This document shows, piece by piece, positions 13,131 to 57,891 of a stretch of DNA of 64,000 bases. Under the pieces are notes generated by a model. It searched no databases. It was not told where the DNA came from and saw nothing but the letters and a program-made list of their open reading frames with translations. Source of the stretch: Chondrosia reniformis. Its lineage: Eukaryota > Porifera > Demospongiae > Chondrillida > Chondrillidae. Location: contig OX359189.1 of the NCBI GenBank assembly GCA_947172415.1, forward strand, positions 9,066,501-9,130,500, given 5' to 3'. Positions within the stretch are counted from its first letter, which is position 1. The number at the start of each line of letters is the position of its first letter. The translations under genes were made by a program, and so were the position numbers.

Positions 13131-13227
13131 AAATATTTCAAAGAGTTCTAATTTTCAAAAATATATGAAGTACCGTATCTCACTCTAATACCTACTCAAG
13201 GTCGGCCATTTATAGTATTACGCAATT

Positions 13228-30354: not shown

Positions 30355-32951
30355 TCAAATTTGATTGGCATTTATCTCAATTGGTACAAAAGTAGGATTC
30401 TTCTCCATCTCTTCGAATTCATGTTCTGATTGTTGATAAGTACCTTTAAAATGTGATCATATATGTATATATAATTGCATGGTTAGAGTGGCCATGGGTA
30501 TTATATTATATAATGTATTAAGTTAAAGAGTATTTACATGCGCGTATATGCATAGCAATAAAAATAATGATTCATTACATTTAAGATGCAAAGCCTAGCT
30601 TACATATTATTAATTTTTAAGACTTTTATCTGACATGATTATTGGTCATACCTTTAGATGGTGTAGCATAATCACTTCCTCTTTTAGATCTCTTCCTCTT
30701 ACAACAAGCTACAACACATGTAACTATGAATATGATCCAACTGATTATCAGCAGTGAAGCTAACACACCAGATGAGGCTATCCAGGTTGTATCTAAACCT
30801 GTGTACAGAAAGGTAATATGTTTACCAAAATAGGAAAGTCAACTACATACACTCTTTTTATAATTATACAGTATAATATAAAATATTTAATTGACCTGAA
30901 TCAGATTTTGTCATATTACTTGGTTCTGCTTCCTTGAGTTTGCAAATGTTGCTAATTGGACAGTTTAGGTACTTTCCCTGTATAAGTACACATTCTTCAT
31001 TGTACTCCACAACCAGCAGTTCACCAGATGTGCATGTGGACACATTGCTTGTGTTACCATAGTACCCTTTCATTGAAAGATTGAGAAGGGGGCACACTAT
31101 ATATGAACATACCATCTTCATATACGTATATATGACATATATGACACTACTTTAAACCTGTCTTCTTTTAAGGGGAACTGTAGCAAACCTCTTTCCCAAG
31201 TTCTGCCCAGTTGTGTTAACTAGTGCAAATGATTGCTCAAAATGAAAAGACATCACATTGTTTGGCATTGCCACTCCTTCTTCATAAAACTCTTCAAACT
31301 GACTGCTGATAGTGAAGGACACTGGATTAGCCCAACCTAGGGCCTTCATCAATGTTAGATCAAAAAGAGTACATGGCATGGCGACTCTGTACACTTGTGT
31401 GTATGTTTTCCCTAAGTAGGTCTTTTATTCAGTTTATATCCTTATATAGATTATTCATGAATAATATCATACCTTGAGAAAGATCTTCTTTCAATTTAAG
31501 GCCTCCAGGATACCCATAGGAGTTGTAAGATCCAAACCCGTAGACAAGAACTCCAATATTTGCTTTCATTGTTGCATGACCTAATATTTGTACACCCCCA
31601 CTGATGTTCACTTGAGCTCCATATACTTCTATGACCCCTTGCCGCTTGATAGGTACAAATTTGTGAACGGTCATATTAAGTGGCTGTCCATTGAGGAATA
31701 TTTCAGAAGGCTGGAAGAAATCTTTTGGAATGTACAAGTTAATGAAGTGAGTATAATTCTGCACTCCATCAAGTAAAGTAGCTAATGTGTATCCATTAGA
31801 ATATTGGTCAACTGAAGGAATCATTGCCATAAATGGATCCGAAAGAACACCATCTACGTTTTGCCCAACAGAAAATAATAACAAGATGATTCTTTTATCT
31901 CCTTCAACCCAGCAATAGTCTGTGCTTGGTATATCAACGTCTCTAAATCCTCCTTCTTGAAGAATAAAGGATGTCAAATTACCAGACTGTCCATCACTCC
32001 GAGTACATTCAATTTGAACAGTGGTGAAATCTTCTCCAGCCACTATTTTAAACCTGTCATAAACCTGTCTTGTTTTAAGAGGAACTGTAGCAAACCTCTT
32101 TCCCCAGTTCTGCACAGGAGGAATCTGTTCCACCAGATGATCACAGGCAATAACATCAGGTGGTACATTAGTACACTGATGTCCAGTTATGAAAGAGATT
32201 GGTTTATCAGATATCACTCTAGTTCCTGTGAGATCACCTTTTTGTCTTATTAGGAGTGATTCGTATTTATGTAGTGTTATTTGTGTAGTAGTTCCAGCAG
32301 CTGTGAATGTTGATCCAATTGTTGTGTCTATATTAGGAGTTATGGACATGATTGTGTTGTTCTTAAAGGCAACTATTCCTATGAAAGAGTCTGAACTATT
32401 CCATGGTGTAGCCATTGCATTGATATATTTGTATGTCTCTGACTCAATTGAAACTGATGGAAGAGCTAGAAATGCATCCGTAGTATATAGTGCCTCATTT
32501 GCTCCATACACCACAAGTTTATGATCTCCTTCAGCCTTTACAATAATAGCTTTTCCTCTGTCAATTGTGTTGACTAGTGCAAATGATTGCTCAAAATGAA
32601 AAGATGTCACATTGTTTGGCATTGCCACTCCTTCATAAAACTCCTCAAACTGACTGCTTATAGTGAAGGACACTGGATTATCTTCAGGAGTAGTTACAAA
32701 GACAGTGAATGTTGGGATAAAGTCAAAATTTTCAAAGAACACTAAAGCAAACTCATTTCCTTCATTACTTTGAACTATGTCTATACAAAATTTTAAGTAA
32801 TCTGTATATAAATTAGGTTTATACAAAATTTATAATATATACAAATGTAATATATTACGTATACATAATACAATATAGCTTGCTTACCTCCATATACACC
32901 AAAAAGGGGAAATATTAGGACAAAAAATCTGATATAATTGTCAAGTGCCAT
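30355..32951 (-). CDS. Gene H: IgGFc-CR-TM receptor
   Basis: Exons: 32888-32951 (signal peptide), 31473-32774 (IgGFc, 434 codons), 30896-31096 (Cys-rich), 30652-30798 (TM), 30355-30443 (tail). They sum to 600 residues, all phase 1. The last third of the head differs from most copies (GQPLNMTVHKFVPIKRQGVI, then GHATMKANIGVLVYGFGSYN) and is shared only with gene J. The CR exon reads CPLLNLSMKGYYGNTSN, then CTSGELLVVEYNEECVL and NCPISNICKLKEAEP. I do not recognise it as a named domain. The tail has NPTFVPIEI in place of the usual NPAY, so the NPxY tyrosine is lost, although SDYATPSKG remains. The intron between head and CR holds a broken piece of another IgGFc exon. Confidence 0.82.
31147..31422 (-). 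pseudogene. Scrambled IgGFc exon fragment plus MITE remnant inside a gene H intron
   Basis: Minus strand 31328-31207 encodes NPVSFTISSQFEEFYEEGVA... FALVNTTG, then jumps at about 31207 to NLGKRFATVPLKRRQV (31206-31147), skipping about 170 residues. Upstream of it, 31326-31382 matches the central part of the MITE at 8479-8764 (gggccttcatca ... gatcaaaaagagtacatgg). The next 35 bp (31385-31422) recur at 42830-42860 in gene J. This looks like debris from recombination between paralogues at a MITE. Not likely to be spliced in. Confidence 0.7.
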
Positions 32952-33529: not shown

Positions 33530-35676
33530 CTAAGTGTATTTGTTTACTCTAATGCCTATCTTGAACAATGAAGAAGATGTGATGTCGAACTTTAAGATGT
33601 ATCTTCCATTGTCGACTACATAAGCAAATCCTCTTTGGTTTATCATCAGGTCTTCGGGATAATTAGAGGAAACTACCCCCCAGAGTGAGAAGACAGAAAG
33701 TGCAATACGTCTGTCAATAGTTAGATCCACTTCATCAATCATATCCAGAATAGACAAATCTGGACCTGTCCGCGAAACAAGATGACATATATACACGTGT
33801 AATGACAGGATATATAATAATATTATGTTTATATACCTTCACTGCAAAGTCTTCCAGAATATCCTCTGCGACAGGTGCACATGTCTGTACCTGCATGTTC
33901 CCTACAAGTACCTCCGATACCACATGGATTGTAGCTGCATTCTCCATACACTGTGCATGAAGTATATAATTAAGGATATATAGAAAACATGGCTGCCTAT
34001 ATAATTACTGCCCTCTCATAACCCTAACCCTCATAATAATTGTCATCCAAGAAAGTAACGGTTAACCACTTAACCATATATACGTAGGTACGATATGTAT
34101 AGACATAAGTCAAACTTAAGGAAGTTTACTTGTGTGTAGTGTATAATCAGATCTTATATAGCTATATAGACTCACCTACTTCTTCACAAAGATCACCACG
34201 GTAACCAGTAGGACAAGAGCAGGTGTCATTGGCAACACAAGCTCCATTTTCACAAGGAGGATCACAAAACACTACATATGTACATGCAAGTATTTGGGAG
34301 GAGAATAAGCAATATACTCACACCATATACATTAACCAATATTGCATGTCTTACCAGGTTGACTGATGTTGGCAATAGTATCTAAAAGTTGTCCTCCGAT
34401 GAGTGTAGTTAGTCCAAAACTAATATCACCTGTGGCAGCTATATCATAAAGACAGTAGATGTCTCCTTGACACATCTCCTCTGCCTGTCGTTCCAAGGCT
34501 GGATCAGTGAAAGTCACTTCAAACATTGGAGTGAACTCTGGATCATAATAATTTGACCAGGAGTCAGTAGTGTAGTCGAATAAGCTACTGTTCTCATTGT
34601 CAATGATTCCTGTATACAATTACAAAGGTTGTACATTACACATTAATATGTATATGTACATATTCTTTATCAGGGCTAGATAAAAGACACATACAATACC
34701 ATGGAGATGACTAAACTTACATGTGACTCCAAAATTCCAATGAATAGCTTCTAAAGTGGAATTCAGAGATAGAGGTGTAGCACTATTCTTAGGTAAAAGG
34801 TCATCAGTTTGGTCGTCATTGAAGGAGCCTAATAAACCACTAGTTTTGTTCTTAAATGAGTCTGGTATACTGATTATGACTGTTGACACATAAGGGTTGT
34901 TGTTGGAGTCAAATTCCTGTTCCAACTTGATGTAGACTCCACTGGTGAAAGTTGCAGAGTAACTGTTATTCTGTTCTCTTCTCACAATGACATTAGTGAA
35001 CATTGCTTCTTCACCATTTTCCATTTCAAGTGCATCACCATCCACCACAGGTTGGAGAACAGAGAAGAGTTGAAACTGAACAGCATCAGAATCTGGTTGC
35101 TTGGCAACAATGGCTGTGAAGGTGGTGGCTGTTGCTGATCCACCTCTAATAGTAGGGGCTTCCTCCATTCTCCCTTGTATTGTTAGGCTATCGTCATCAG
35201 TTTGGAGGAGAATGTACTCCCCTTTTCCATTAAATGTGTACTTGTATCCATCCAAAGTGACCAAATGAGGGTCACCATACACACAAGCTATATACGTACA
35301 TGATAAACAAGTAACAGTAAATATAGTGCTGTTCATTAATATGTTATTATTATGCAGCTGACAAACCTGGAGGTGGGGGAGGGACATAGTCATTTCCATC
35401 ATCTGAAGGTCTCTTTAAAAAGTAGTTATCACAGTCTAAATTAGTTGTTGCCTTACAGCAATAAATTAAAGGGATTAGATCATTTGAGTGATGCTCAGCA
35501 ATGGACACAGCCTCTTGATCATTTGGAGTAGAGTGGTGTACAGATCCTCCACCATATCCTACCAGAAGATCATCATTTTCCTTGTAACAGCAATACTGAC
35601 TATTACCATCACTGTAGCAAAATAAAATTTACATAATCATGCATATACATATATACATATTATACAGTAGAGATAC

Positions 35677-35713
<37 letters not shown>

Positions 35714-37808
35714 CCTAGATAGACATGCATAAACACACACAGAGAGAAGCCTATCTCCCTTAATCTGTAAGACAGACCTGTTAACGGCAATTGATCTATA
35801 GCATGATTCTGATCCAGGATGGAAGTAGTTCCAGTACATCTGTTCATATCCTTCAGTTGTACCAACTCTTCTCAACATGGAGGATTTATGATCCCTCTCG
35901 AACCCACTATTTGGAAGCTCAATAATAGTCTTTCTTGGTGGACAGGGAGGGAGTTGAGAAAGGAGGTTTTCATCAATATTTTGAATACCATTAATTAACC
36001 AATCACTACAAAGTTGACTTAGGTTGGTACCAGAATCTGTCAGAAAGTACACTCCAGACCATTTCTTGGCTGTAAAAATTCCAGTGAGTGAGTTACCAAA
36101 TTTGGCAGACACTTCAAATATGACAGGAACTACATCATTAATATTTTGGGATGGTATTTTACCATCTCGATAAGGTGGGTTAACATTCACAGTTTCATCT
36201 TCTGCAATTGTATCAAGAACGTTCCATTCTCCAGTCACCACATCCATCTGATGAAGGAATATACCCACATTGGCAGACTGTTGGATGGAAATTGGTTGGC
36301 CAATTATTGACTACAATGTCTTGTGATGTTGTAAGCAAAAGTGATTTATCAGTTTCAGAAATAAAGACATCAACCTCATGGCCTCGATCAACAGGCACTA
36401 AAAATAAAACAATCAATCAAACTTCGAACATATACATATAATAGAACATGATCTGTATATTGCTGAATTAATATTGCAATTGTATATATACAACTATGTT
36501 TGCACTAACAAATATAAACATATCTATTGTCTTGAAACTGCACTCCGTCAGAATTGCTAGCTGTAAAGGCAAATAACACAACTCTAGAATCCCTAAAGCG
36601 GGGAGACACACAATAGGCTGTACTCTCATTTATGTACATTGCGTCAGCCTCAGTGCTTCCAAAAGCACACTTGATCAGAAAAGAAATTTGAAGACAATCA
36701 GAATCTAAAGTAATTGTCAAAGGTGTTCCACCGAGAACATGAAAAGAATGAGTACTGAGTGAGATACCACCTGAAACGATATGATACAAGATTATATTAT
36801 AAGGGTTTACAATCAAATTTCTATACTAGCTAGTGACTAACCAGTACAGTCAGCAAATACTAGTTGTTCCTGGTCAAGTCTAAATATCCAACTACCAATT
36901 ACTCCTGTATTTCCAGGAATAATGTCAACTATACCAACATTTTCAGTTTGTGAACCAGGTATTTCATAGCTGGTGACATTATCTCCGGCACTGTATCCCA
37001 TGAATATACTATATCCAGTTCGATTGGTCCAGTGTACTCTGTCTTCAGCATAATTGAAAATTGTCACTGTTACATCTCCATCCGTTGCAATCACAGCTTG
37101 AAAGGTGCTATTCTAAATTGATTCATTTATATATATCTATGTACCTCTTACTGTATTGGTGCAACATGACAATTATACAGGAAATTTGTAATAATCACAT
37201 GCTTTTAAAGTAAATTTACCATTGTGTCTTGATTGTAATATGTACTAATATTAATCCAAGTTACAACGAGTCCCCAGTTAGCATGGAAGCTTCCAAGGTT
37301 CAAGAAGGTGCTGGTTATCCGACTTATTTCAGCAAGAACTTGGCTATTGTTGAATGGCAACAGCAGTCTGTAGTGTACACTACCTCTGTCATTGTAATAA
37401 TAATAATGATTATTCCAAAAAGGCGCAAGAAAGGCATCTTCCATCCATTGGCGGTAATAAATTGGATGGCGGTAAAATGTGTAATATTGATCATCCTGAA
37501 AGTAAATTACTCCATCTCCGTATAGCTGGAAAAAAATAAAGCCTTTAAAGGACAAACAAATTTACGAAGTTGAACGTTTACTTACTAGGATATTATATAC
37601 TTACACTGATAAAAGAATACCTTTGACCGAAGAAATGAAAAGGATTATCTGAAACATTCAAAAATCGAACAGCATAGTAATGATCATAGAATATCTGATC
37701 TCCGTACTCCTCTCCAAAAGGGTACCCAACGAAGTTTTCAAAGGGAATTGCAGACGCTGAAACCAAAATTGTAAGCGTCACAGCAACTTTGCCAAAGTTT
37801 GCCCACAT
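33530..37808 (-). pseudogene. Gene I: NIDO-TIG-AMOP-VWD-EGF-EGF secreted-type gene, frameshifted
   Basis: Eleven exons: 37605-37808 (signal peptide MWANFGKVAVTLTILVSASA and NIDO start), 37220-37525 and 36842-37112 (NIDO), 36510-36770 (TIG/IPT-like), 35778-36397 (linker and AMOP), 35367-35611 (AMOP end), 34721-35287 (VWD, VYGDPHLVTLDGYKYTFNG), 34355-34609, 34176-34271 (EGF1), 33837-33950 (EGF2), 33530-33765 (ends NKYT). The layout is like MUC4/mesothelin-type NIDO-AMOP-VWD proteins. Two lesions: exon 5 changes frame after NNWPTNFHPT (about 36280) and then stops at 36213. The exon 7/8 junction reads T|GA, a stop, where gene J has T|GG. Exon lengths sum to 3175, not a multiple of three. No TM exon is found. 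A pseudogene or an assembly with errors; most exons are still well conserved. Confidence 0.72.
35679..35713. repeat. GATA microsatellite
   Basis: About eight tandem gata/agat units in an intron between the two AMOP exons of gene I. Confidence 0.95.
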
Positions 37809-38394
37809 GCCTAAAGAAAGTTCTTTATGGGAGTAAATGATGGCGTTTACTGAATTAACTTCCGCTTCGCCCTTCCTCGTTCTGCATAGATTAACGAGAA
37901 TTCCTGTGTATATCTCTATATTGGTTATGTAAACTAACTCGTATACACTTCTCCATGCAAATGTACTAATTACGTATACATCCGGATCCCTATATAGCTA
38001 TTTAAAGGGTTAGTAGGTCAATATATATATATATAGATCCACTCATTTGTCGACAAAACCTAAGCTATGTACTCATATTATATAGCTGCATGAAGGAGAC
38101 TGGGTTGTCTTTAGTGTTAAAGCTAGCGCTGGATGTATAGATTATAATACCGCTCTTAATACAGTACCATTTTTATTATCCCACAGACTTAGAGAAATAT
38201 CCTATGTAACAGAACAGAATTGATGAATTTATTTCGACCATTGGATGTAAGTATACACATGACATTCATGATCGAATTCATTCATCTTAATACAGCACAT
38301 GCAGCAACAAATTAAAATTGTCCCTATGCTACATTTATTGTTTCATGTGTATGCATTTGGCTATGTTATTTCATCATATATACGTATAATATAC
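37809..38394. other. Spacer between genes I and J
   Basis: AT-rich, no exon seen. It carries a minus-strand AATAAA at 38334-38339 that fits gene J. Confidence 0.55.
38334..38339 (-). terminator. Candidate poly(A) signal of gene J
   Basis: Minus-strand AATAAA 56 nt past the stop at 38395. Confidence 0.5.
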
Positions 38395-41300
38395 TCAATC
38401 TTCAATTTTGCTCATCTCAGCAAGAATATCATATATTTCATCTGCTACATAGAGAGGATTCCCTTTAACCTGGGCTTCCTCTATGTCATATAGCCCATGG
38501 CCAGCTGCTCCTATACATAAAGACTGCATATGTCATAAATATGTCATTAATATATACTTATGTATATACTACATATAACATTGCATGCTTGAAATGAATA
38601 AAATAGTATTATCATGATCAAGTATATAATATATATATACAGTATGACTTTCAAATAGTGTACCCTTACACAGGAATTTGATATATACAAACCTGCAGCT
38701 GGTGAGGGGTGATGATCTTTATTCTTGCATTTGCAAAAGTAACAAACAACAACAAATACCACTGCAAACACTCCAATTATTACTACTGCTGGTACTACTG
38801 TAGCCACAATCAATGGAATATCCAGAGTATTAGAAACAGTTACTATATATAAGGCATATATAAAAGCTTTTTTACATTAAAATTATATACGTATATACAT
38901 AAGTGTATATGTATGTTTGCTATAAATACCTTCAACCACGTGCACCATGTTACAATATCTTCCAAAGTATCTCTCTTGACAGGTGCAAATGTATGTACCT
39001 GCATGTTCCCTACAAGTACCTCCATTACCACATGGATTGTAGCTACATTCTCCATACACTGTGTAGTGATTATATAAGGTTATATACATATTAAAATAAT
39101 AATAAATATTTAATGACTACAATAATGTTTATTTATGTTAGTTTGTAGGTCACTGAAAAAATAACAGAATTACAATATGTACCTTTTTCTTCACAAAGAT
39201 CACCACGGTAACCAGTAGGACAAGAGCAGGTATCATTAGCAACACAAGGTCCATTTTCACAAGGAGGATCACAGAACACTACATATATACAGTACATGCA
39301 AGTATTTGGGAGGAGAATAAGCAATATTCGTGCACCGTATATATACATTAACCTATATTGCATGTCTTACCAGGTTGACTGACGTTGGCAATGGTATCTA
39401 AAAGTTGTCCTCCAATGAGTGTAGTTAGCCCAAAACTAATATCACCTGTGGCAGCTATGTCATAAAGACAGTAGATGTCTCCTTGACACATCTCCTCTGC
39501 CTGCTGCTCCAAGGCTGGATCAGTGAAAGTCACTTCAAACATTGGAGTGAACTCTGGATCATAGTAATCTGACCAGAAGTCAGTAGTGTAGTCGAATAAG
39601 CTACTGTTCTCATTGTCAATGATCCCTAGTATGTAAATATCACAAATAATTAGCTCCTTCTATAGTGAACAAACAAGTTTTATCTATAGCATATATATCA
39701 GACTATGTAAATGTAAAATTACACCTCAGAAGACCCAATAGAAGAAAATTTCAAAGGATAATTGATGAAACAACTTAACTCACATGTGACTCCAAAATTC
39801 CAATGAATGGCTTCTAAAGTGGAATTCAGTGATAGAGGTGTAGCACTATTCTTAGGTAAAAGGTCATCAGTTTGGTCGTCATTGAAGGAGCCTAATAAAC
39901 CACTAGTTTTGTTCTTAAATGAGTCTGGTATAGCTATGATTACTGCTGACACATATGGATTTCCATTTGAGTCAAATTCCTGTTCCAACTTGATGTAGAC
40001 TCCACTGGTGAAAGTTGCAGAGTAACTGTTATTCTGTTCTCTTCTCACAATGACATTAATAAAGATTGCTTCTTCACCATTTTCCATTTCAAGTGCATCA
40101 CCATCCACCACAGGTTGGAGAACAGAGAAGAGTTGAAACTGAACAGCATCAGAATCTGGTTGCTTGGCAACAATGGCTGTGAAGGTGGTGGCTGTTGTTG
40201 ATCCACCTCTAATAGTAGGGGCTTCCTCCATTCTCCCTTGTATTGTTAGGCTGTCATCATCAGTTTGGAGGAGAGTGTACTCTCCTTTTCCATTAAATGT
40301 GTACTTGTATCCATCCAAAGTGACCAAATGAGGGTCACCATACACACAAGCTATATATGTACATGCATACATACATGAAAAATAATGTACAGGGAATATA
40401 GTTCTGTTTGCTATTATTTTGTGGTGAAAGAGACAAACCTGGAGGTGATGGACGGACATAGTCATTTCCATCATCTGAAGGTCTCTTTAAAAAATAGCGG
40501 TCACAGTTCTTTGATTCGCAACAATATATAAAAGGCTGAAGGTCATTCATGTGGTGTTTGGCAATGGAAGCAGCATCTCGATCATTTGGAGTAGAATAGT
40601 GAGCTGATCCTCCACCATATTCTACTAGAAGTTCACCATCCTCTTTGTAACAGCAATACTGACTATTGCCATCACTGTATATACAGCAAAGAGTATATTT
40701 ATCATTGGAAATTATAATGCATATAATCACATGTATATATACTCCTTATAACCTGTACCTGTTAACTGCAATTGATCTATAGCATGATTCTGATCCAGGA
40801 TGGAAGTAGTTCCAGTACATCTGCTCATATCCTTCAGTTGTACTAACTCTTCTCAACATGGAGAACTTACTATCCTTGCCAAATCCACTGTTTGGAAGTT
40901 CAATGATTGCTTTCATTCTTGGACATGCTTGTAGTGAAGTTGAAGAATTATCACTTACATTTGCATTGCTAAACCAATTGTTGCAAAGCAAAATCAAGTC
41001 AGTAGTAGATTTATTTGCTAAAAAATAGATACCAGACCACTTCTTGGCTTTCAATTTTACAAAAACTGTGAATATTACAGGAATTGTATCGTTAGGAATA
41101 ATATAAGTAGCCGTAATTGGTGGACGTAATTTTTCCAATTGATATGATTCTTGTGTCTCATTTATTTCATCGTTACCTACAACATCAAAGCAAATATTCC
41201 ACTCTCCTGTTGTTAAGTCCATACAGTATACACGTATGCCTTTTTTTTCATTCTCTGTTGGATGGAAATCATTTGACCACTTAAACGTAATATTTTGTGC

Positions 41301-44300
41301 TGTATTTAACAAAAGGGATCTATTATCATTGAAGACGTTCACTTCATGGGCTTGATCAACAGGTACTATATAAATAAATAGATATAATAAATAATAATAT
41401 AATGTTAATCATTACTTGCAACTTTTAAAACTTATACGTAGATATATAGATGGTCCAAATTGATGATAACTTTCTATAAGTTCAATACAGTGCATGATCA
41501 CATGTTTCTTTTTATTCCTGTTTTAGACATATATATACATGCAGACATTTTGGTATATGTATAAAGGATTAATGAATCCATTTAATATGCTGCGTATGTT
41601 ATGCATGTTCATAGTGCTTACAGATAGATACATATTTTCTCCATTTGAAAGTTTCCGTATTGCTGATTATAATTGTAAAGGTAAACTGTACAACTCCAGC
41701 AGATTTAAACTCAGGAGAGATACAATATGCTGTGGTCTTATTTATGTATTCTGCATCAACTTCATGATCAGTGTCTTTAAAAGTACATTTGAGAGATGAA
41801 TTTTCTAGAGTGTTTGACTCCAAAGTAACAGTCAGAGGTGTTCCTCCAAGAACATGGAAGGAGTGGGTACTGAGTGATATTCCACCTAAATTGGAATTAT
41901 CAATACACAATAATCAGGTAACCTCTGTATGTTTTTATTTATACTTCTGGTTGTTATACATTTGCCTGATATATAGTGGAACCTGCATGTCTAACCATGG
42001 GACCTATTTATCTGGCTGCATTAGACAGGTGGCCGCATTATAAAAGGATACTTGATGAATTTGAATTGTTTTTGAGTAAACCGAGCTGTTGGTCTTGGAT
42101 TTGAATTAGAAGTACCGTGTGCATGTGTATCGTTTTAGCGATTTACTTGTACAAAATTGGAGCTTTGTTAATATAAATAGCTTGTAAAATATTTATTACT
42201 ATATAAATTTGTTCTTTATCAGACTTGTTACTCGTGTTATAAATGCCGGATACAAAGGTAAAACCTCTTTGGACTCAAAAAAAGGTGACCGTATTATATG
42301 CATTAGATGGGTGACCGCATTATCAGGGTTTAAATGTGTACGAAGTAGAGTCTACAGCGTAACCTTTTGGGACTTGATTCAGGTGACCGGTTTAAGCAAG
42401 GGGCCGTCCTAGAGATAGAGGTTACCATTCATGCAAGTTCCACTGTATATACATACCCCACAACCGTGGCAATGAATTGATTAGGGGGGGGGGGGGGCAT
42501 TATCTATACATAAAGTGCTGATTAAGGAGACATATAGTGTGAACATATTTATATATAAGTGAAGTAGATCTTATGCATTCATTTTCTTTGTTACAATTAG
42601 TTTCAGTCACTGAAGCAAATATAATGCCTTTCTGTTCTTAATTTTAGCCATACCCAGGCTGCCCAAAGAGCTGACAATGGTGTATAACACAATTCCCTTT
42701 TGGCTCAGACTTCATCTAAATAAATTATTAGAGTAATCTGCTAATTACGTAGCTGCATTTACCATAGCAACAGTTACTAAGCATTCAATTTAAAAGAGAG
42801 GTCATTGTTTAGAAGTACACTGAGGTCTCTATACACTTGTGTGTATGTTTTCCCTAAGTAGTCAGCCCTTGCATATTAGCCATATATTAGGGGCGCCACC
42901 AGGCGCCCCTATACTGTTTTCAGAAATTGTGTTAACGTATGGCTTCCTGTTCGTAACCTTGCAACATATACATGCTACACTATGCTTGCATGGCTTTTAT
43001 TGATTATACATAAAAACTTAATTTTACCATTTACTAACTTTTTCTCTGCATATATAGTTACAATAGTTAGATAGTTATGACAGCCCCTTATATTGTTTTC
43101 ATTTGCCGATTACGTTGTATGGCTTCGTGTTACGGAAAGATAGATATATCTATACGCAACTATCATAACACTTATTTTATACGTCGATATATGTATAATA
43201 CCAATTCATACGCAACTATTATAACACTTAATTTATACGTCAATAAATCGTTTTTGCAAATGGCGGCGTTCAGGAAGCTTTAGTTAACGAAGCTTTTCCA
43301 TCGTTATTTATACAGTTCAGGACACTTAAGCGTCCTCAATCGTTAAGATTATGAATTTTTATATTAAATCCCAACGAAGTGGCCAAGTAGTTCGAGTTAA
43401 TTTGTGCCGCCCCACGAGTTTTTAAACTCGAACTACTTGTTCATGAATAATATCATACCTTGAGAAAGATCTTTCAATTTAAGGCCTCCAGGATACCCAT
43501 AGGAGTTGTAAGATCCAAACCCGTAGACAAGAACTCCAATATTTGCTTTCATTGTTGCATGACCTAATACTTGTACACCCCCACTGATATTCACTTGAAC
43601 TCCGTATACTTCTATGACCCCTTGCCGCTTGATAGGTACAAATTTGTGACCGGTCATATTAAGTGGCTGTCCATTGAGGAATATTTCGGAAGGCTGGAAG
43701 AAATCTTTTGGAATGTACAGGTTCATGAAGTGGATGTAGTTCTGCACTCCATCAGGTACAGTAGCTAATGTGTATCCATTAGAATATTGGTCAACTGGAG
43801 GAATCATTGCCATAAATGGATCCGAAAGAACATTATCTACCTCTTGCCCAACTGAAAATTGTAACAAGATGATTCTTTTATCTCCTTCAATCCAGCAATA
43901 GTCTGTGCTTGATATATTAATGTCTCTGAATCCTCCTTCTTGAAGAATAAAGGATGCAGAATAACCAGACTGTCCATCACTCTGAGTACATTCAATTTGA
44001 ACAGTGGTGAAATCTTCTCCAGCCACTACTTTGAATCTGTCATAATCTAGTCTTGTTTTAAGAGGAACTGTAGCAAACCTCTTTCCCCAGTTCTGCACTG
44101 GAGGAATCTGTTCCACCAGATGATCACAATAACCAATATCAGGTGGTACATTAGTACACTGATGTCCAGTTATGAAAGAGATAGGTTTATCAGATATCAC
44201 TCTAGTTCCTGTGAGATCACCTTTTTGTCTTATTAGGAGTGATTCGTATTTATGTAGCGTTATTTGTGTAGTAGTTCCAGCAGCTGTGAATGTTGATCCA

Positions 44301-44873
44301 ATTGTTGTGTTTATATTAGGAGTTATGGAAATGTTTGTGTTGTTCTTGAAGGCAACTATTCCTATGAAGGAGTCAAACCTGCCCCACGGTGTAGCCATTG
44401 CATTGATATATTTGTATGTCCCTAACTCAATTGAAACCGATGGAAGGGCTAGAAATGCATCCGTAGTATGTTGTGCTTCATTTGCTCCATACACCACAAG
44501 TTTATGATCTCCTTGAGCCTTTACAATAATAGCTTTTCCTCTGTCAGTTGTGTTGACTAGTGCAAATGATTGATTAAAATGAATAGATGTCACATTGTTT
44601 GGCATTGCCACTCCTTCTTCATAAAACTCCTCAAACTGACTACTGATAGTGAAGGACACTGGATTATCTTCAGGAGTAGTTACAAAGACAGTGAATGTTG
44701 GGATAAAGTCAACATTTTCAAAGAACACTAAAGCAAACTCATTTCCTTCATTACTTTGAGCTACAAATAATAAGTATACATAAATTATAAACATATAAAC
44801 ATAATGTTTATTGCTTACCCCTACATACACCAAAAAAGGCAACAATTAGAAAGGTGTAACGGTTAAGTGCCAT
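38395..44873 (-). CDS. Gene J: IgGFc-TIG-AMOP-VWD-EGF-EGF-TM mosaic receptor
   Basis: Eleven exons: 44819-44873 (signal peptide MALNRYTFLIVAFFGVCR), 43459-44760 (IgGFc), 41622-41885 (TIG-like), 40759-41365 and 40439-40674 (AMOP), 39784-40350 (VWD), 39371-39625, 39183-39278 (EGF1), 38930-39058 (EGF2), 38693-38842 (TM), 38395-38510 (tail). They sum to 3777 nt, exactly 1258 residues plus stop, and every junction phase agrees. Rough residues: head 19-452, TIG 453-540, AMOP 541-821, VWD 822-1095, EGFs 1096-1170, TM ~1180-1205. The TM (VVIIGVFAVVFVVVCYFC) and tail (NPLYVADEIYDILAEM) differ from the other genes. The stalk is the gene I type, but an IgGFc head replaces NIDO. The joining intron is unusually long (1.57 kb) and holds two inserted elements, so two truncated genes remain an alternative; a transcript would decide. 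Confidence 0.68.
41974..42445. mobile_element. Tc1/mariner (pogo-like) MITE
   Basis: The ends are inverted: left (t)agtggaacctgcatg and right catgcaagttccactg, flanked by TA-rich sequence consistent with a TA target duplication. The length is about 470 bp and no transposase frame is seen. Internally it has related gtgaccgcattat motifs (near 42275, 42310 and, inverted, none). It lies in the long intron of gene J. Confidence 0.65.
42484..42497 (+). repeat. G14 homopolymer
   Basis: Fourteen consecutive G on the plus strand in an otherwise AT-rich intron. It could form a quadruplex, or be a miscalled length. Confidence 0.9.
42861..43438. mobile_element. Insertion unique to gene J intron
   Basis: Relative to gene H, sequence between the shared 35-bp block (42830-42860) and the head exon's donor flank (from 43439) is extra here. 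It contains a perfect 9-bp GC stem (aggggcgcc / ggcgcccct, 42889-42910). It ends in an inverted pair, aagtagttcgagtt (43386-43399) and aactcgaactactt (43425-43438). No coding frame is supported. The type of element is not recognised. Confidence 0.5.
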
Positions 44874-45870
44874 TTTGTTTGGCTATATATATCCCTGGTA
44901 AAATTTCCTTATTTGTGTGTACATATATAGGGCCACCCACATTCCTCCTACACTCTTATACATATTCATTAATCATCCATTTAAGGTATGGAGTTGCAAT
45001 AGCATTGTTGTTGTTTACATAATACTGTCATTGACAATTGCAAACGTAACCATACTTTCATGTAGTATATACGTATGTACAGTATGTTTATAGCTAATCT
45101 TTTTGACAAGCAAACTCATGATCATTTCCTTCATTATAATTACTATGAGCTAACAATCAAAGCATGCTACAGTCCTTACATATAAAGTATAAAGATTATT
45201 GATATTGGTTAAAATACTCAAATTGATTAACTGCACCTTCCACATATACGTAGTTATAGTTAGTACATAGTTGTTAGTACCATTTTTGTTATCCCATCTG
45301 TCAGTGTATTATGTTGTTCATATCCTGCTACACTCTTATGCATATTCATTTTACGTAGATATTTATTCTGAGAATTCCTTTATAGGAATTATAGAGATCT
45401 AGTCATCTCATATTAAGCCCACATACTCACATAATACATTAAATACATTTAATGCAACATTCATCAATTGAGAAGTGTTGTCCCTTTTGGGTATACGTAG
45501 CTAATTATATAAAACTGCTTTGGTACGTACGTACTTGATGAATTCTATATATATACTCTAGCTGAATGTGCGTGCTATATATGCATATACGTATAGTAAA
45601 TTGTATACATACAGTATTAATTGAAGACTATATATTATTAGCAGTGTTAATTAATTATGCATAACACTTTCATGAAGCTTTTCTATCAAGGAGCTACAGC
45701 TATATATACGTATGTAGTACTTGACTACCTCAATTATAATGCTATACATTTTATTCCAATTATTCCATTTTATGGTATGCTGTCAATACAAAACACAATA
45801 AAAAGAAAGCAAGTAAAATACTTGAATGATATTGATACCAATATAATTCAACATTTATTAGTAACTAGTT
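44874..45870. other. Spacer between genes J and K (copy at 10512-11482)
   Basis: No gene seen. It contains a minus-strand AATAAA at 45854-45859, 12 nt past the gene K stop. Confidence 0.6.
45854..45859 (-). terminator. Candidate poly(A) signal of gene K
   Basis: Minus-strand AATAAA 12 nt past the stop codon at 45871; conserved in the orphan tail at 11466-11471. Confidence 0.45.
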
Positions 45871-48800
45871 TCAATAAATATATTCATAAGCAGGATTGTT
45901 TTCCATCTTTTCAGAACCAGGATCAATTTGATGAGAAGTATCTTCTAAACCAAAGGAAGCATGTAACAGGACAATGTAATATACATTTAATAATTATATA
46001 GACATAGAGAGGAGTGCTTGAGTGGATAGTTAATTAGATCTTAATCATTTCTTTAGACATTTGGTATAATGTTTGCAACATAAACACATGTACATACACA
46101 CAAATTGTATGCAGATATGTTGCAAATGTGTATTATGTAGTCTACACATATATACCTTTAGATGGTGTGGCATAATCACTTTCTCTTTTAGATCTCTTCC
46201 TCATACAACAAGCTACAACACATGCAACTATGAATATGATCCAACTGATTATCAGCAGTGAAGCTAACACACCAGATGAGGCTATCCAGGTTGTATCTAA
46301 ATCTGTATACAGAAAGGTAATAATTACATTTTACAGTTTATAAGTAGGAAAGTCAAGACTTAGTGTATTTACAGTACTAACTCTCAATTGTGTTCACTTT
46401 CAACTTCCTACTTTTACTGACCAAAACTACATTATGAAAGCAATAAGCAATTGTATCCACTCCAATGAGGTAAATAGTTGGCGTCAAATCTTCAATAATG
46501 TGGTATGTTTCATTCGTAGTTGCTTTTCTCAAACTAGACCCATCTCCACTCTGTTGCCATGTTACCTCATACACAATAGTGCATTGCTCAAAACATCCTA
46601 CACTATGGGACCACATTATGGAGATTGTACTCTCAGATATATTTAGAAGTGCCAATTTAGTAGGTGGATTGAAGGATTCAGCATCATCTATAAGTACATA
46701 CGTACGTACATACGTATATGTATTTAGAATAATTGTTATTTATTACATTTCAATTTTTAAAATGAAAAAAGGAAATTTGATACTTTATCACAAGGACAGA
46801 TGTACATACATACACACTCACCTCTAACTCTCACAGTCACAGGTTCACTCTCCTCCATACTACCATCAGCATACACAACAGCACAAGAGTAGTTAGCCTC
46901 TCCATTGAGGAAGACACTCTTTCTTGTTGTCACATTCACAACTGTCTCAGTATTACTCTGGGATACAACCATATGGTATGTATCAGGTAGATCAATCCTC
47001 TCTTCATCCTTCATCCACACTACAGGACTGGTCTGATTAAAGATGGGTCCACTTGATGCAGTATCAGTTATATCATGATGGTGACAGGTGAGTTTGACGT
47101 CTGTGTCATAACAGACTGGATTCTGTGAAATTTCAATTTGTATTGCATCTATAAATCAAGATTGAAACTTTAACAAATCTATAGTGCTATATATGTATAT
47201 ATAGGTCACCAACTCCTATTGACTTACCCAATGTTGTAATCTCCACCTCCACTGTATCACTGATAATATCTGGATACTGTACACTCTGTGCTGTGATCAT
47301 AAAGATGTAACTTGTACTCGTTAATGACTCTTCTGTGATGGTCTTGTTAGTAGTTGTATATGATGTACACTGAGATGGATTAGGTACTCCATTGACAAGA
47401 AGACAGTGAGTGATGTTGAAGAAGATGTCTTTATAGCACACTAGTTCATCATAATCCCAAGCTAGTGTCACAGTTCTGATTTTCAGCATATTCTTTACAT
47501 TGTAAGGTACTTTCAATGCTAAATAACATATGAAGTAATAATTGTTATATATATCCTCTATACATTTACAAGTTTAAGATAAGCGTTATATATATTTTAA
47601 AGTTCTCTATATATGTACGTATTTATATTTTAAAATGAAATATGCTAAACAAAAACAAACCAGTAAGTACTGATCGTTTTCTGTCAATTCTAAATATCCA
47701 TTTTCCATTAATTCCACTGTTTCCGCAACTAGTATCAAGTGCAGCAATGTTATTAGTCAAAGATCCGGGTACTTCATAAGTGGTTACATTATTTCCAGCA
47801 CTGTAACCTACTCTAACACCCTGACTACTTATCCATTCAATATCGGCATAGTTAAATACAGCTACTGATGCACTTCCATCTGTTATTATGGCAACTTGAA
47901 AGGAGTTGCGCTGTAATCACAAGCAGATAATTGAAATGAACTTGTATGTATATATACTGCCACTAAATACCTACGTAGTACTGAATGTCTTCAAATTATA
48001 TAATATAAACAGGCATAATACAATAGCAGATTGTAGCTATATAATATTTCTTAAGGTTTTGGTAGATCAATTGCAAAAACTATTGTCTGAAGTGCATGTA
48101 CTGCAAGTGAGTTGTGTTTTGCCGTTAAGCTTCACAATCTTTGCAACTCCCCAATATAAATCTGATCAAATTCACTTAAATAAGGTGGTGTGACAGTGGC
48201 TTCGATCCTGCACAATTTTCACTTTTAGGTAAGTACCCCACATGTTTTTACTTGCCTTTGGCATTCCTTTGTTTAGTGAAAATTGTGCATGAAGCCACAA
48301 CCACACCATGACCTCTCTTAATTAGATTTGGACAAGTTAAAACACCCTTGGAGCAGTTCATCACATTACATGCACCATCACATGGCTTTACACAGGATAA
48401 AGCGACAGTATTACATCATCATGAACGACCATTCATAGAAGAAAATGAGAAAGTGTGCAGACCTACCCTGCATCAACAGAGAACAATGAATGCTTAACAT
48501 TGACATATTTGTAGTTAAGGAGACATTACTCATTAAAGTACTGTATTTTTTATATTCATATGCCAAATGTATCACATACATATGCCATAAGTACATATCA
48601 CATTACTCATCACAAAATTACATCATCACACTCAACTCAATCATATTTAAAAGGCTTGTACTGCCCTCTCTTACTACACTAATAAAGACCTCTAGCTATA
48701 GGTTGAAACACTCAATATGTGGAAATCTGATATATAGGTACATATATATATACATACATAATATATAAATGTAAAACAATAATATATATACTTGTTTTGA

Positions 48801-49646
48801 TTCTTGCTCATATCCATGGACATTGTACCAAGTTAAAATAAGGCCCCATGTTGGAATGAAACCTTTGAAAGGAATGTATCTTCTCGCTGTAGAGCTGATA
48901 TTACTGAGAAGTGCGCTACTGCATGATGATGGAGAGAGAAATCTGTAATACACTCCACTTCCTTCGTGATCAACTGTTGATACATCAACATCTCCCCAGT
49001 ATGGGGCTAATATAGCAGTTGTATTCCACGGATAGTTACGTGAATCAAATTCTGTGAAATTGTTGATTGTGTTTGTAAAGGAAATAGCTCCATTAATGTT
49101 GATCTGCATGCACGTGAGAGATTAATAGCACCAGCAAGCACGAATACACTCGATAGCTATACCTATAGAGCATATAGTCAGACAACCTTTCGATATATTA
49201 GGCTGGTGTGTGTATATACGGGGCGAGCTATAGGTCCAATTAAATTTATGGTCCATTCTTGTTCTGACATTAAGTCGAAATTAGACTGACCATTCGATCA
49301 CTTTTAAGGCATGCATGTTTTACTGGAGCCATAGCCAATGAGTGTGAGTAAATTTAACTTTTTTAGGAGGAGTTAGGAGTCGACAAAATCTAATACATGC
49401 ATACCATATTCTCTCTTTATAATGGTCACGATAACTCACATTAATGTAAGAGTAGTACTTGCCGAAGAAATGAAAGGGATTGCAGGTTAGGTTCACTGGC
49501 ACGAAAGCATCAAGCTTCCTCGGAAATGTCTGATCTCCGTACTCTTCTCCGAAAGGGTACCCAATGAATTTATCAAACGGAATAGCTGTAGCAGACCCGA
49601 ACAGTTCTAGAATCGCTAGCAGTACAATTATGGGATATGATAGCAT
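45871..49646 (-). CDS. Gene K: NIDO-FN3-Ig-FN3-TM receptor
   Basis: Eight exons: 49440-49646 (signal peptide MLSYPIIVLLAILELFGSA and NIDO start, GYPFGEEYGDQTF), 48792-49103 and 47661-47910 (NIDO, ILAPYWGDVD and WGLILTWYNV), 47228-47518 (FN3), 46822-47148 (Ig; C...VVWMKDE...NYSCAVVYADG), 46382-46687 (FN3), 46156-46302 (TM), 45871-45944 (tail). The sum is 637 residues without a stop. The first two junctions are phase 0 (inside NIDO); all others are phase 1. Start chosen at the ATG before LSYPII, matching gene M. The tail EDTSHQ...MENNPAYEYIY carries an NPxY motif overlapping YEYI. TM and tail exons are of the IgGFc-receptor type, so NIDO and IgGFc heads share one membrane anchor family. Adhesion or recognition receptor by domain content. 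Confidence 0.85.
48182..48322. mobile_element. Hairpin-forming MITE-like element in gene K intron 2
   Basis: The left arm at 48182-48224 (aaggtggtgtgacagtggct... tgcacaattttcactt) pairs imperfectly with 48277-48322 (agtgaaaattgtgcatgaag ...). The loop is about 50 bp. No coding potential. Confidence 0.6.
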
Positions 49647-49990
49647 GCTTCGTTCTGTCAATTAATTAGCGAAGATATACTATAATGTAAATCTTATTTT
49701 CTCCTCAAACTGTAATTGGAGCCCAAACAAGAAGGGATTTTAAACCAGCTGAATCACGTGCATGCACGTGCTTAATTAAAAGGCAGTGGTTGCACCATAT
49801 AGTATAGAAGATCTAAGTTGCACAGACCCAAAGGATTAGAAAGGTACGACACTTTATTAAACCATGGTACAATTTAATTTGTTGATTACAGTACACGATC
49901 CAAAATGCAATTTAAGTAAAGTAATTATGCATAAAAGATGTATAGCTAAAACAATCTTTGTTCATACATGTACCGTTGTACCTAATTCAA
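49647..49990. other. Spacer between genes K and L
   Basis: Short intergenic stretch, no exon. A minus-strand AATAAA at 49853-49858, about 135 nt past the gene L stop, may be its poly(A) signal. Confidence 0.55.
49853..49858 (-). terminator. Candidate poly(A) signal of gene L
   Basis: Minus-strand AATAAA downstream of the stop at 49991. Confidence 0.4.
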
Positions 49991-52900
49991 TCAAAAGATA
50001 GTTTCATAAGCAGGATTTTTTTCTATCTCTTCATGCTTGGCCATGGGTTGCTGATAAGTAGCTTCAGATGGAATATAATATCGTAAATGAAAGAAATCTC
50101 AGTGGAAATATTTTCATGGGTTCATTACAAAAATAGAGACTGCAAATTAAATGCATGTACATGAATTGAGCTTTATATTAAATTTTGTTATAGGTTTTGT
50201 ATTATTAACTAAGGCTTCTCAAAAAGTGATTGTTTGTGTATATGATATATGTATGTACTAATTACTAAATATATGTACATGAGGCCCAATCACTATATAT
50301 ATATACATGTGTTAGGTACCAAAAGATTTAGACTTCAAAAACTAACCTTTTCCATGGCTTTGTAATAAGAGTATATATGGACATTACTTAATTAGGTTGT
50401 GCACTTTAACATACATAATTGTATATATACGTATATACGTAATACAAGCATGCCGAGCACATTAATACCTTGAAATGGTAAAACATATTCACTGTCTCCT
50501 TTAGATCTCTTGTACACACAAACAGCTACAACGCATGTAACTATGAATATGATCCAACTGATTATCAGCAGTGAAGCTAACACACCAGATGAGGCTATCC
50601 AAGCGCCCGGTATAAATCTAGATCCATCTGACACTGTATGCACAAGTTTACATACAGAATGAAACAGAGATATATTATATGCAGACAAGTGCAGAGTCAA
50701 ATCATTACAAAGTTTTGCTTTAGATCTTAAAGAGTTAACTATTTGTCAATAAGAGTAACCAGTATCCTTAAATGCAAGTACTTACACTTATGAATATTTG
50801 TATTGACTTGCAATTTTGCACTTTTACCAACTAAAACTACATTATGAAAGCAATAAGCAATTGCATCCACTCCAATGAGGTAAACAGTTGGTGTCAAATC
50901 TTCAATGGTGTAGTATGTTTCATTTGTAGTTGCTTTTCTCAAACTAGACCCATCTCCACTCTGTTGCCATGTTACCTCATACACAATAGTGCAGTGTTCA
51001 TAACATCCTGCACTGTGGGACCACATCATGGAGATTGTACTCTCAGATATATTTAGAAGTGCCAATTTAGTAGGCGGATTGAAGGACTCAGCATCATCTA
51101 TAAGTACATACGTATGTGTTATAGAATAATATAAAAATGAATGAAAGACGTGGATGCTTAAACACAAAGACAGATGTACCTCTAACTCTCACAGTCACAG
51201 GTTCACTCTCCTCCATACCACCATCAGCATACACAACAGCACAAGAGTAGTTAGCCTCTCCATTGAGGAAGACACTCTTTCTTGTTGTCACACTCACAAC
51301 TGTCTCAGTATTATTCTGGGATACAACCATATGGTATGTATCAGGTAGATCAATCCTCTCTCCATCCTTCATCCACACTACCGGACTGGTCTGATTGAAG
51401 ATGGATCCACTTGATGTTGTATCAGTTATATCATGATGGTGACAGGTGAGTTGGACGTGTCTGTCATAACAGACTGGATTCTGTGAAACATCAATTTGCA
51501 TTGCATCTATAAATCAAGATTGAAACTTTAACAAATCTATATATATATATATAACAAGTTCACACCTATGTACAATAAATGTTGCTATACATTTACAAAG
51601 GTAATTAAATAAGGTGCACCTTCACATTTGGTTTTATGCATAATATTAGCTAATATTTAAAATTCACTTTCAGCCTTTGTAATATTACTTGGTTCTGCTT
51701 CCTTGAGTTTCCAAATGCTGCTAATTGGACAAGTTAGGTACTTCCCCTGTGTAAGTACACATCCTTCATTGCACTCCACAACCAGGTTCTCATCAGATGT
51801 GGAGCACACTATAATGATTGTACATACATTGGTAAATTTGTCATGTACGGTATATATATGTACGTATATATATGTAAGTGGAGAGCAAACTTGTACATGT
51901 TTATATTATATATACACAGAAACTGTATAAGCAAACTCTAATTAAAACCCATGAAAAGCATACCAACTTGTAAATATTGTTCAAAACTTACCATTTTGCT
52001 CTTCAGAAAGATCCTTAAGTTTAAGGCCTCCGGAATACCCGTAAGATATATATTTATTAAACCCATAGATCAACACGCCAATACTTGCAAACTGATTCAC
52101 ATGTCTTAATGTTTGTACTCCTCCACTGATTTCTATTTGAGCTCCATATACTTCAGTGACTCCCAAGGACTGGATGGCTGTGAAATTGACATTTAATTCT
52201 TCAAGTGACCGGTCATTTAGAAAGATTTTAGATGGTTGGAAGAAATATTTTGGAATGAACAAGTTTATGAAGTGATCATGATTGGTTTGCGTCTGCACTC
52301 CATCAGGTACAGTAGCTAATGTGTAACGATTGGAATATTGTTCAACTGGAGGAATCATTGCCATAAATGGATCCGAAAAGGGAACATTATCTACCTCTTG
52401 CCCAACAGAAAACTGTAACAGAATGATTTTCCCATCTCCTTCAATCCAACAATAGTCTGTGCTTGGTATGTCAATGTCTTTGAATCCTCCTTCTTGAAGA
52501 ATAAAGGATGTAGAATTACCAGACTGTCCATCACTCCGAGTACATTCAATTTGAACAGTGGTGTAATTTTCTCCAGCCACTACTTTGAACCTGTCATAAG
52601 CCTGTCTTGTTTTTAGAGGAACTGTAGCAAACCTCTTTCCCCAGTTCTGCACTGGAGGAATCTGTTCCATGAGATGATCACAATGACCAAGATCAGATGG
52701 TATATTAGTACACTGATGTCCAGTTATGAAAGAGATAGGTTTATCAGATATCACTCTAGTTCCTGTGAGATCACCTTTTTGTCTTATTAGGAATGATTCG
52801 TATTTATGTAGCATTATTTGTGTAGTAGTTCTGGCAGCTGTGAAAGTTGATCCAATTTTTGCCTTAATATTGGGAGTTATGGACAACAGAGTGTTATTCT

Positions 52901-53475
52901 CTGAAGCAACTATTCCTATCATAGAATATAAGTAATCCCACGGTGTGGCCATTGCATTGATATATTTGTATGTCCCTGACACAGTCCTAACTGGAGGGAG
53001 AGCTAGAAATGCATCCGTAGTATGTAGTGCCTCATTTGCTCCATACACCACAAGTTTATGATCTCCTTGAGCCTTCACAATAATAGCTTTTCCTCTGTCA
53101 GTTGTTGTGAGTAATACAAATGATTGATTAAAATGAAAAGACGTCACTTGGCCTGGCATTGCCACTCCTTCTTCATAAAATTCCTCAAACTGACTACTGA
53201 TAGTGAAGGACACTGGATTATCTTCAGGAGTAGTTACGAAGACAGTAATATTGATATTTTTCCCAAAATGATTTTCAAAGAATACCAAGAAAAACTCTCT
53301 ACCTTCATTGCTTTGAGCTATATGAAAAAGCAAGTTGTATTAATTTACATTTAAGCTATATGTATAGTATATACAGTATTAAAGCTATTATACATCATGA
53401 TCTGGTAAACTACATACTCTCACACGCTCCCAAAGTGGCAAAGAATATAAGTGTTCCAAGGTAGAAAGCTACCAT
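49991..53475 (-). CDS. Gene L: IgGFc-CR-Ig-FN3-TM receptor
   Basis: Seven exons: 53418-53475 (signal peptide MVAFCLGTLIFFATLGACE), 51992-53317 (IgGFc, 442 codons), 51668-51808 (short CR), 51180-51506 (Ig), 50786-51097 (FN3), 50469-50633 (TM), 49991-50061 (tail). They sum to exactly 800 codons, all phase 1. Rough residues: head 20-461, CR 462-508, Ig 509-617, FN3 618-721, TM ~735-757. The Ig and FN3 exons are close copies of those in genes K, M and N, while the head is of the IgGFc family (variable parts NHFGKNINI, DYLYSMIGIVASENNT, IPSDLGHCDHL, FNKYISYG). The CR exon has lost the first half present in genes C and H. The TM exon ends SEYVLPFQG; the tail ends NPAYETIF, with overlapping NPxY and YETI sorting-like motifs. 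Confidence 0.83.
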
Positions 53476-57400: not shown

Positions 57401-57891
57401 GCCTTTGCACAGCTTAGACTCCCCTGCTCCCCTATATATACAATATGAATGCAGTGGGGGACTCTATAGGCCTTTATAATGTTGTCCTGCTTATGCGGAT
57501 CCAGAGTTAGCAAAATAGAGCCATCAAAAAACCTGGCTGTACTGGCACCCCTCCCCTATGTACACTTTCAGGTCACGCGTATACTCCACCAATTGTCAGA
57601 GATTAATCTATGTTATGACTAAATTCATGACCACTATGTACATGCACACGTATGTATTCTATCACCATGATCACGATAACTCACATTAATGTAAGAGTAG
57701 TACTCGCCAAAGAAATGAAATGAATTATTAGTTTGGTTCACTCGTACAAAAGTATCAAGCAGCCTCGGAAATGTCTGATCTCCATACTCTTCTCCGAAAG
57801 GGTACCCAATGAATTCATTAAACGGAATAGCTACAGCAGACCCGAACAGTTCTAGAGTCGCCAGCAGTACAATTATGGGATATGATAGCAT
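54472..57891 (-). CDS. Gene M: NIDO-FN3-Ig-TM receptor
   Basis: Exons: 57685-57891 (signal peptide MLSYPIIVLLATLELFGSA, NIDO start), 56783-57091 and 56294-56543 (NIDO), 55874-56164 (FN3), 55472-55798 (Ig), 55031-55177 (TM), 54472-54611 (tail). They sum to 556 residues if the damaged second FN3 exon (55260-55343) is skipped, which phase 1 on both sides allows. The TM exon ends SGHTIPSEG, so the YxxP tyrosine found in most paralogues is replaced by H. The long tail reads GASCGPQSEHEEMEKNPAYE and continues to NQYEFTG; it keeps NPxY. The TM-tail intron contains a plus-strand lysine-rich segment shared with gene N. Confidence 0.78.
54715..54958 (+). other. Lysine-rich plus-strand segment, copy 1
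   Basis: In the TM-tail intron of gene M. Its plus strand contains a charged stretch (SQKQLSDPVEKKKEKTPVSS) and SKALSRFS..IGLFYRIGT, ending in a stop at about 54958. Copy 2 (59755-60016) is more open. It could be a fragment of an inserted retrocopy. No start codon or splice support here. Confidence 0.35.
55260..55343 (-). pseudogene. Decayed second FN3 exon of gene M
   Basis: Starts as FN3 (DDVESFNPPTKLVLLNISES, AISMIWSQ) at a correct acceptor, then hits a stop where paralogues continue HSAGCYEHCTIVYE. The remaining ~75 codons are deleted. Explains the shorter stalk of gene M compared with gene K. Confidence 0.75.
57120..57600. other. GC-richer block in gene M intron 1
   Basis: About 480 bp with less AT than its surroundings, including tggccactggtggtctggct and a short inverted pair agccagcct / aggctggctn-like near 57270-57295. 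No gene K counterpart is seen, so it is probably an inserted element of unknown type. Confidence 0.35.

Follow-up and report, generated by a model that had tools for sequence, protein, structure and literature searches.

Genes I, J, K and L

The 64 kb stretch of Chondrosia reniformis contig OX359189.1 analysed here (the window, numbered from its first nucleotide) carries a cluster of candidate receptor genes, all arranged in tandem on the minus strand. Four of them, I, J, K and L, lie between positions 33530 and 53475, and the preliminary description had proposed that two kinds of head, NIDO and IgGFc-binding, are exchanged there on two kinds of stalk within 20 kb. The assignment of the heads was correct: Pfam identifies NIDO in I (3.1e-26) and K (2e-32), and IgGFc_binding in J (3.3e-63) and L (4.1e-58). 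The letters of all other genes are labels assigned in this analysis. Some exon ends (those of the short exon, the last FN3, the transmembrane (TM) exons and the tails) were picked by hand from the sequence and its paralogues.

Gene J (44873-38395) comprises 11 exons with a sum of 3777 nucleotides (nt), which encode 1258 amino acids (aa) and a stop codon in an open frame with all phases matching, exactly as had been claimed. A signal-peptide exon that starts with ATG and exits in phase 1 (44819-44873) is followed by the IgGFc_binding head exon (43459-44760, phase 1-1) and, after intron 1 (41886-43458), by a TIG-like exon (41622-41885). The pre-AMOP region with the first part of AMOP (40759-41365, phase 1-2) and the second part of AMOP (40439-40674, phase 2-1) come next, then the VWD (39784-40350), C8-3_MUC4 (39371-39625), EGF1 (39183-39278) and EGF2 (38930-39058) exons, a single-pass TM exon with a hydropathy of 3.2 (38693-38842) and a cytoplasmic tail with NPLY and the stop (38395-38510). 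Nine of the ten introns are in phase 1; the remaining one, inside AMOP, is in phase 2. The Pfam scan of J and L that the preliminary description had suggested finds, besides the IgGFc head in both, AMOP (2.6e-10), VWD (2.2e-13), C8-3_MUC4 (9.5e-14) and EGF (5.6e-05) in J, with AMOP preceding VWD as in Mesh/MUC4 receptors, and fn3 (4.1e-06) in L. No NIDO was matched by Pfam in J, where IgGFc stands in its place, and a search for a NIDO exon in 41881-45870 gave nothing convincing (best E 0.29 over 7 residues). The AMOP, VWD and EGF labels of the stalk are thus backed by Pfam, whereas TIG is sub-threshold (TIG_plexin 0.015, TIG 0.035-0.065), the unrelated BTD and DUF5077 models reaching similar values (0.031 each); we use the TIG label because of these sub-threshold matches and the position of the exon in a Mesh-like order. 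AlphaFold2 models of this exon and of the J head were poor (predicted local distance difference test scores of 43 and 34, respectively).

We infer that the J head is joined to its stalk across the 1.57 kb of intron 1. Alternatively, J would be two separately transcribed units: an IgGFc protein that is secreted and stops within intron 1, and an AMOP-VWD receptor that has either no head or a different one. The head could then end at a possible terminal exon (42853-42777), or by read-through, since the frame of the head exon continues 23 nt beyond the donor to a stop just past 43436. The acceptor before the terminal exon is common to J and gene H and is, with the surrounding 35 nt, 97% conserved between them; this makes a secreted J head, perhaps as an alternative form, possible. 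A home-made gene finder scored the fused J at 205.6 and the best of 76 forced splits at 199.1, only 6.6 log units lower. This preference is weak because the codon table was trained on the 64 kb window, J exons included, and because a first free run fused L to K, split I and joined the 3′ part of I to H. The terminal exon and the wrong joins both count against the fused gene. On the other side, the phases agree across the junction, the stalk is under purifying selection (see below), the best split would begin the stalk with a short pair of exons that scores poorly and shows no evident signal peptide, and a separate head would be without the TM exon that follows nine of the ten other IgGFc heads in the cluster (gene A is the exception). 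The known signal, short, TM and tail exons of the cluster were not recognised inside intron 1 of J (E<0.5). We consider two units unlikely, and J is treated below as one gene.

Gene I begins with a signal peptide and NIDO exon 1 (37605-37808), followed by NIDO exons 2 (37220-37525) and 3 (36842-37112, exiting in phase 1), a TIG-like exon with a weak donor (36510-36770), a pre-AMOP/AMOP exon (35778-36397), a second AMOP exon and VWD, C8-3 and EGF1 exons (34179-35611, homologous to 39181-40679 of J), and EGF2 with a final non-TM exon containing the stop (33530-33950), of which relic copies occur in the left array. I and J had been said to carry the same stalk. Their exons are indeed homologous, but the pre-AMOP exon of I is 2 nt shorter than that of J near 36279, which breaks the frame in this sequence and counts against the history favoured below; the listed acceptors that restore the frame in phase 1 lose at least 56 codons. 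I also has no TM exon; after EGF2 comes a short exon with a stop, and the maximal hydropathy is 1.1, compared with 3.0-3.2 for the TM exons of J, K and L. The final exon looked CUB-like by eye; Pfam gave no match and the label is not used.

Gene K (49646-45871; 8 exons, 637 aa) reads NIDO-[FN3-like]-Ig-FN3-TM with an NPAY tail, and gene L (53475-49991; 7 exons, 797 aa) reads IgGFc-short exon-Ig-FN3-TM, also with an NPAY tail; both are open with matching phases. K consists of a signal peptide with NIDO exons 1 and 2 (49646-49440 and 49103-48792), NIDO exon 3 (47661-47910, exiting in phase 1), all three with Pfam support, an FN3-like exon without a Pfam match at E<=10 (47228-47518), and Ig (46822-47148), FN3 (46382-46687), TM (46302-46156) and tail (45944-45871) exons. 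L consists of a signal-peptide exon (53475-53424), the head exon (53317-51992), a short exon shared with H, C and N (51668-51808), and Ig (51506-51180), FN3 (51097-50786), TM (50633-50469) and tail (50061-49991) exons; Pfam finds no VWD in it, and a TM is present. The fn3 match of K (2.1e-04) is below the cut-off, as is Ig_2 in K (0.05), L (0.008) and the Ig exon of M (5.4e-04). All six introns of L and five of the seven of K are in phase 1, the two exceptions lying inside NIDO, in phase 0. Near-identity of K and L after the head, as initially described, holds for the Ig exons (95% in nt, 89% in aa) and the FN3 exons (93% and 90%), but not for the TM exons, which are about 81% alike in protein (K-type query), or for the tails, which have NPAY and little else in common. 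With an extra short exon in L and an extra FN3-like exon in K, the two stalks share modules but are not identical.

Heads of the IgGFc and of the NIDO type alike end in phase 1 and stand ahead of two stalk types. Domain matches, phases and the comparison of paralogues support the reading that, within 20 kb, two head types are used on common stalk modules. The modules of J, K and L are bounded by phase-1 introns, as in class 1-1 exon-shuffled proteins.

Homology breaks and divergence

Homology between J and H continues for 22 nt beyond the head donor (to 43437), resumes for 35 nt (42861-42827) and then ends. Since it ends inside a phase-1 intron, the break between head and stalk can be placed within 41886-42827. 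About 540 extra nt separate the H-homologous parts in J, beginning at a perfect 15-nt inverted repeat (43384-43398/43425-43439). Between the stalks of K and L, homology sets in roughly 50 nt ahead of the Ig exon, likewise within an intron. Because these breaks fall within introns, exchange at phase-1 introns is supported.

The divergence between I and J varies strongly along the stalk. Identity in aa is 96% for VWD, 95% for C8-3 and 97% for EGF1, and falls to 77% for EGF2 and 60% for the TIG-like exon. Synonymous divergence (dS) is 1.47 for TIG, 0.68 for AMOP2, 0.12 for VWD, 0.15 for C8-3, 0.17 for EGF1 and 0.31 for EGF2, and the ratio of nonsynonymous divergence (dN) to dS is, in the same order, 0.22, 0.21, 0.19, 0.13, 0.08 and 0.44; the pre-AMOP exon has a dN of 0.31 and a dS of 0.71 before the frame break, and 0.30 and 1.20 after it. 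These ratios indicate that the J and I stalks are under purifying selection, which is also seen in the FN3 exon of K and L. A dS of about 1.5 for TIG against 0.12-0.17 from VWD to EGF1 suggests that I and J are an old pair, the middle of which was later homogenised by conversion. With these values J does not qualify as a young duplicate of I that acquired another head. Exchange of heads is supported by the intronic breaks; a simple swap between I and J is not shown.

The IgGFc heads appear to be mosaic. Trees of all 11 IgGFc head exons unite J and H when the complete head is used (support 1.000), and again for its last part (1.000). In its last 300 nt the J head is 93-100% like H, while C, B and L are at 63-81%; the promoter and signal exon of J is 88% like that of C and 71-76% like those of the other matched genes. 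Runs tests on the six open head exons, the five frame-broken ones being left out, reached the observed value in 0 of 1000 permutations for 8 of 15 pairs.

We also looked for diversifying selection in NIDO exon 2 of K and M, in the Ig exons of K and L and in windows of the head exon, and do not claim it. NIDO exon 2 is 73% identical in aa between K and M (48792-49103 and 56783-57091), compared with 94% for NIDO exon 3, and has a dN/dS of 1.23, with dN>dS in 71% of bootstraps, which is not significant. In the head-exon windows dN/dS reaches about 1.0-1.2 in places.

Gene order and origin of the cluster

From 63 kb to 30 kb the genes follow the order N (IgGFc), M (NIDO), L (IgGFc), K (NIDO), J (IgGFc), I (NIDO) and H (IgGFc), so that I, K and M are the three NIDO genes of the window. 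Neighbours have a stalk type in common: N, M, L and K carry Ig with or without FN3 (truncated in M), and J and I carry TIG-AMOP-VWD-EGF. N (59574-63089) is a tandem copy of L, IgGFc-short-Ig-FN3-TM-NPAY, with a broken head frame; M (54541-57891) is a relative of K, NIDO-FN3-like-Ig-(truncated FN3)-TM-NPAY, with its exon joins partly resolved; and H (30355-32951) is an IgGFc-short-TM gene whose head is, across the entire exon, the one most closely related to that of J. To the left of H lie seven more IgGFc genes and no whole NIDO gene. The 3′ relic of a NIDO gene is found just upstream of five of these seven, I-like at A, D, E and F and K-like at C; none was found upstream of B and G. The short exon was detected in H, C, L and N only (E<0.5), from which a graded stalk length emerges: none, short, and short-Ig-FN3.

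Several further features of the array were observed. Between N and M, within 58600-59310, a lone EGF exon (59307-59203, like EGF2 of J and I) stands with a K/L-type TM exon (58767-58675); they may be a relic or may reflect another recombination of stalks. Gene H contains, at 31208-31329, an additional incomplete copy of the IgGFc exon, located between the head exon and the short exon. Arrays resembling satellite DNA, with repeat units of about 170 nt (1-1255 and 12020-15622), flank and interrupt the IgGFc array, and one of them adjoins TM and tail sequences of the K type at 11.5-11.9 kb. The open frames of the five broken IgGFc heads end at 62395, 28212, 16319, 9336 and 1698; the broken heads of A and D end in identical letters, and their break is therefore probably older than their duplication.

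The alternating order and the NIDO-gene 3′ relics fit the duplication of a pair of genes. We think it fairly probable that modular type I membrane receptors form a tandem cluster here, which grew by duplication of a NIDO and IgGFc pair, followed by shuffling at phase-1 introns and gene conversion. An ancestral unit of one NIDO gene and one IgGFc gene on the same strand would have been duplicated in tandem, after which cassettes for head, stalk and TM would have passed from one neighbour to another by unequal crossing over and gene conversion, both ending in phase-1 introns. L would then be an IgGFc-short-TM gene holding the Ig-FN3 cassette that is also used by the NIDO gene K, and in J an IgGFc head would have been combined with a TIG-AMOP-VWD-C8-3-EGF-EGF stalk of the Mesh/MUC4 type, with I as its NIDO counterpart. 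Such a history suggests that the cluster may make new receptors by recombining ready-made exons.

A number of observations weigh against this history. The models of J, K and L were rebuilt from splice sites, with the gene finder and manual reading, from genomic sequence alone. Among the 11 IgGFc head exons of the window that start with QSNEG, only six are open and five are frame-broken. The alternation is one of 35 possible orders of four and three genes and was spotted post hoc, and, relics excepted, it breaks down in the left half. The Ig exons of K and L have a dN/dS of 1.09 (dN>dS in 57% of bootstraps), and the IgGFc heads of J and H one of 0.49. The grouping of J with H is lost over the first 977 alignment columns. 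The runs tests are not significant for E-H (65/1000) and H-L (509/1000), and they take no account of rate variation along the exon.

Alternatively, a single full-length ancestor may have been copied in tandem, with heads later deleted or replaced piecemeal and no exchange between the present neighbours. This would also account for genes that lie in tandem on one strand, and the leftover 3′ ends of genes show that unequal crossing over took place repeatedly. We regard it as an improbable account: the patchwork heads point to later exchange or conversion, as does the finding that, within one gene pair, stalk dS ranges from 1.47 (TIG) to 0.12 (VWD). A further reading is a paired-receptor locus of alternating IgGFc and NIDO genes, in which neighbours with matched stalks may act together as co-receptors or heteromers and conversion at phase-1 introns goes on creating new head-stalk pairs for self/non-self or microbe recognition; we hold it to be quite unlikely. 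That a chimeric assembly or a mixture of haplotypes produced the apparent combinations from simpler real genes is very unlikely, since, although some copies are 94-98% alike across kilobases and several are frame-broken, as uncorrected reads or uncollapsed haplotypes would give, J, K and L are open, purifying selection acts on the stalk exons of J and I and on the FN3 exon of K and L (not on their Ig exon), the examined homology breaks sit in introns, and the window contains not a single undetermined base (N). Growth by pair duplication with subsequent exchange therefore remains our preferred reading.

Relatives, possible function and known systems

Twelve cytoplasmic tails were found. NPxY is present in 11 of them (H has NPTF), and six have NPAYxxI or NPAYxxV, as in K (NPAYEYI) and L (NPAYETI). 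NPxY tails suit PTB or endocytic adaptors. The heads may bind ligands outside the cell, such as matrix, surfaces that are mucus-like or microbial, or adjacent cells, with the stalks spacing or cross-linking the heads and the NPxY tails recruiting PTB or endocytic adaptors.

A search of genome contigs found two bacterial relatives of the IgGFc head, both from Saprospiraceae and both 28% identical over the whole head exon; no other animal sequence was found, and a search of viral contigs gave no relative of the head. As the bacterial relatives match the entire exon, the exon probably represents one complete domain unit. One of them is a protein of 763 aa (L001 9935-12226) with a signal-like start followed by a full-length head relative beginning QSNEGREF; the scan patterns included QSNEG[NR]EF, so that the start shared with the bacterial relatives was partly selected for. 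A PDB profile search with the J head gave no credible match (best 0.81).

That exon shuffling of class 1-1 modules is established, as the preliminary description held, is borne out by the retrieved text of PMC8001218. The same description knew of no such combinatorial cluster. Among the matches listed for open-licence text (figures excluded), we likewise found no description of an IgGFc-AMOP-VWD protein or of a cluster of this kind. The one paper that matched both IgGFc and AMOP was, to judge by its entry, a gut mucus review; a figure legend in a sponge paper (PMC8242945) names NIDO and IgGFc-binding among other domains, and the retrieved parts of PMC8260672 and PMC7333891 contain nothing on this architecture. 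The NIDO-TIG-AMOP-VWD plan is thus known from Mesh and close to that of MUC4, while an IgGFc head on a NIDO-less version of it was not found among those matches.

Phase-1 exon shuffling has mostly been inferred from old, scattered genes. Here one 64 kb tandem array with recent copies brings together two unrelated types of head, several stalk modules and a TM exon used in common, so that breakpoints and intermediates can be read directly. Taken as a sponge cluster, the array would also exemplify how an early animal lineage innovated in modular receptors; it supplies, in addition, named candidate genes for cell or microbe recognition.

Mesh, of insect smooth septate junctions, has the order NIDO-TIG-AMOP-VWD-Sushi-TM, as given in the retrieved text of PMC4964579. 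I resembles it in its NIDO-TIG-like-AMOP-VWD order and J in its TIG-like-AMOP-VWD-TM stalk; in J, however, IgGFc replaces NIDO, and C8-3 and two EGFs replace Sushi, while I lacks a TM and is frame-broken. The plan of MUC4, as given in abstracts, is NIDO, AMOP, VWD, EGF and TM. J shares with it AMOP, VWD, a match to the C8-3_MUC4 model and EGFs before the TM, but has an IgGFc head and no NIDO; no mucin repeat region is evident in its 1258 aa, for which no dedicated search was made.

FCGBP is a secreted protein with many VWD-C8-TIL units. Like FCGBP, J combines IgGFc_binding with VWD, and its stalk as a whole matches FCGBP chain 8rde at 4.7e-07, no single stretch passing 0.01; unlike FCGBP, it has one VWD, added AMOP and EGFs, a membrane anchor and no TIL match. 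Tandem clusters of recognition receptors with varied ectodomains include Hydractinia Alr and the vertebrate leukocyte receptor complex; allorecognition receptors are marked by high allelic polymorphism linked to a self/non-self response. The head families here are IgGFc and NIDO. To the extent that one sequence allows the comparison, the cluster resembles such systems in having genes copied in tandem that encode type I membrane proteins with a tyrosine motif in the tail, and in its signs of gene conversion.

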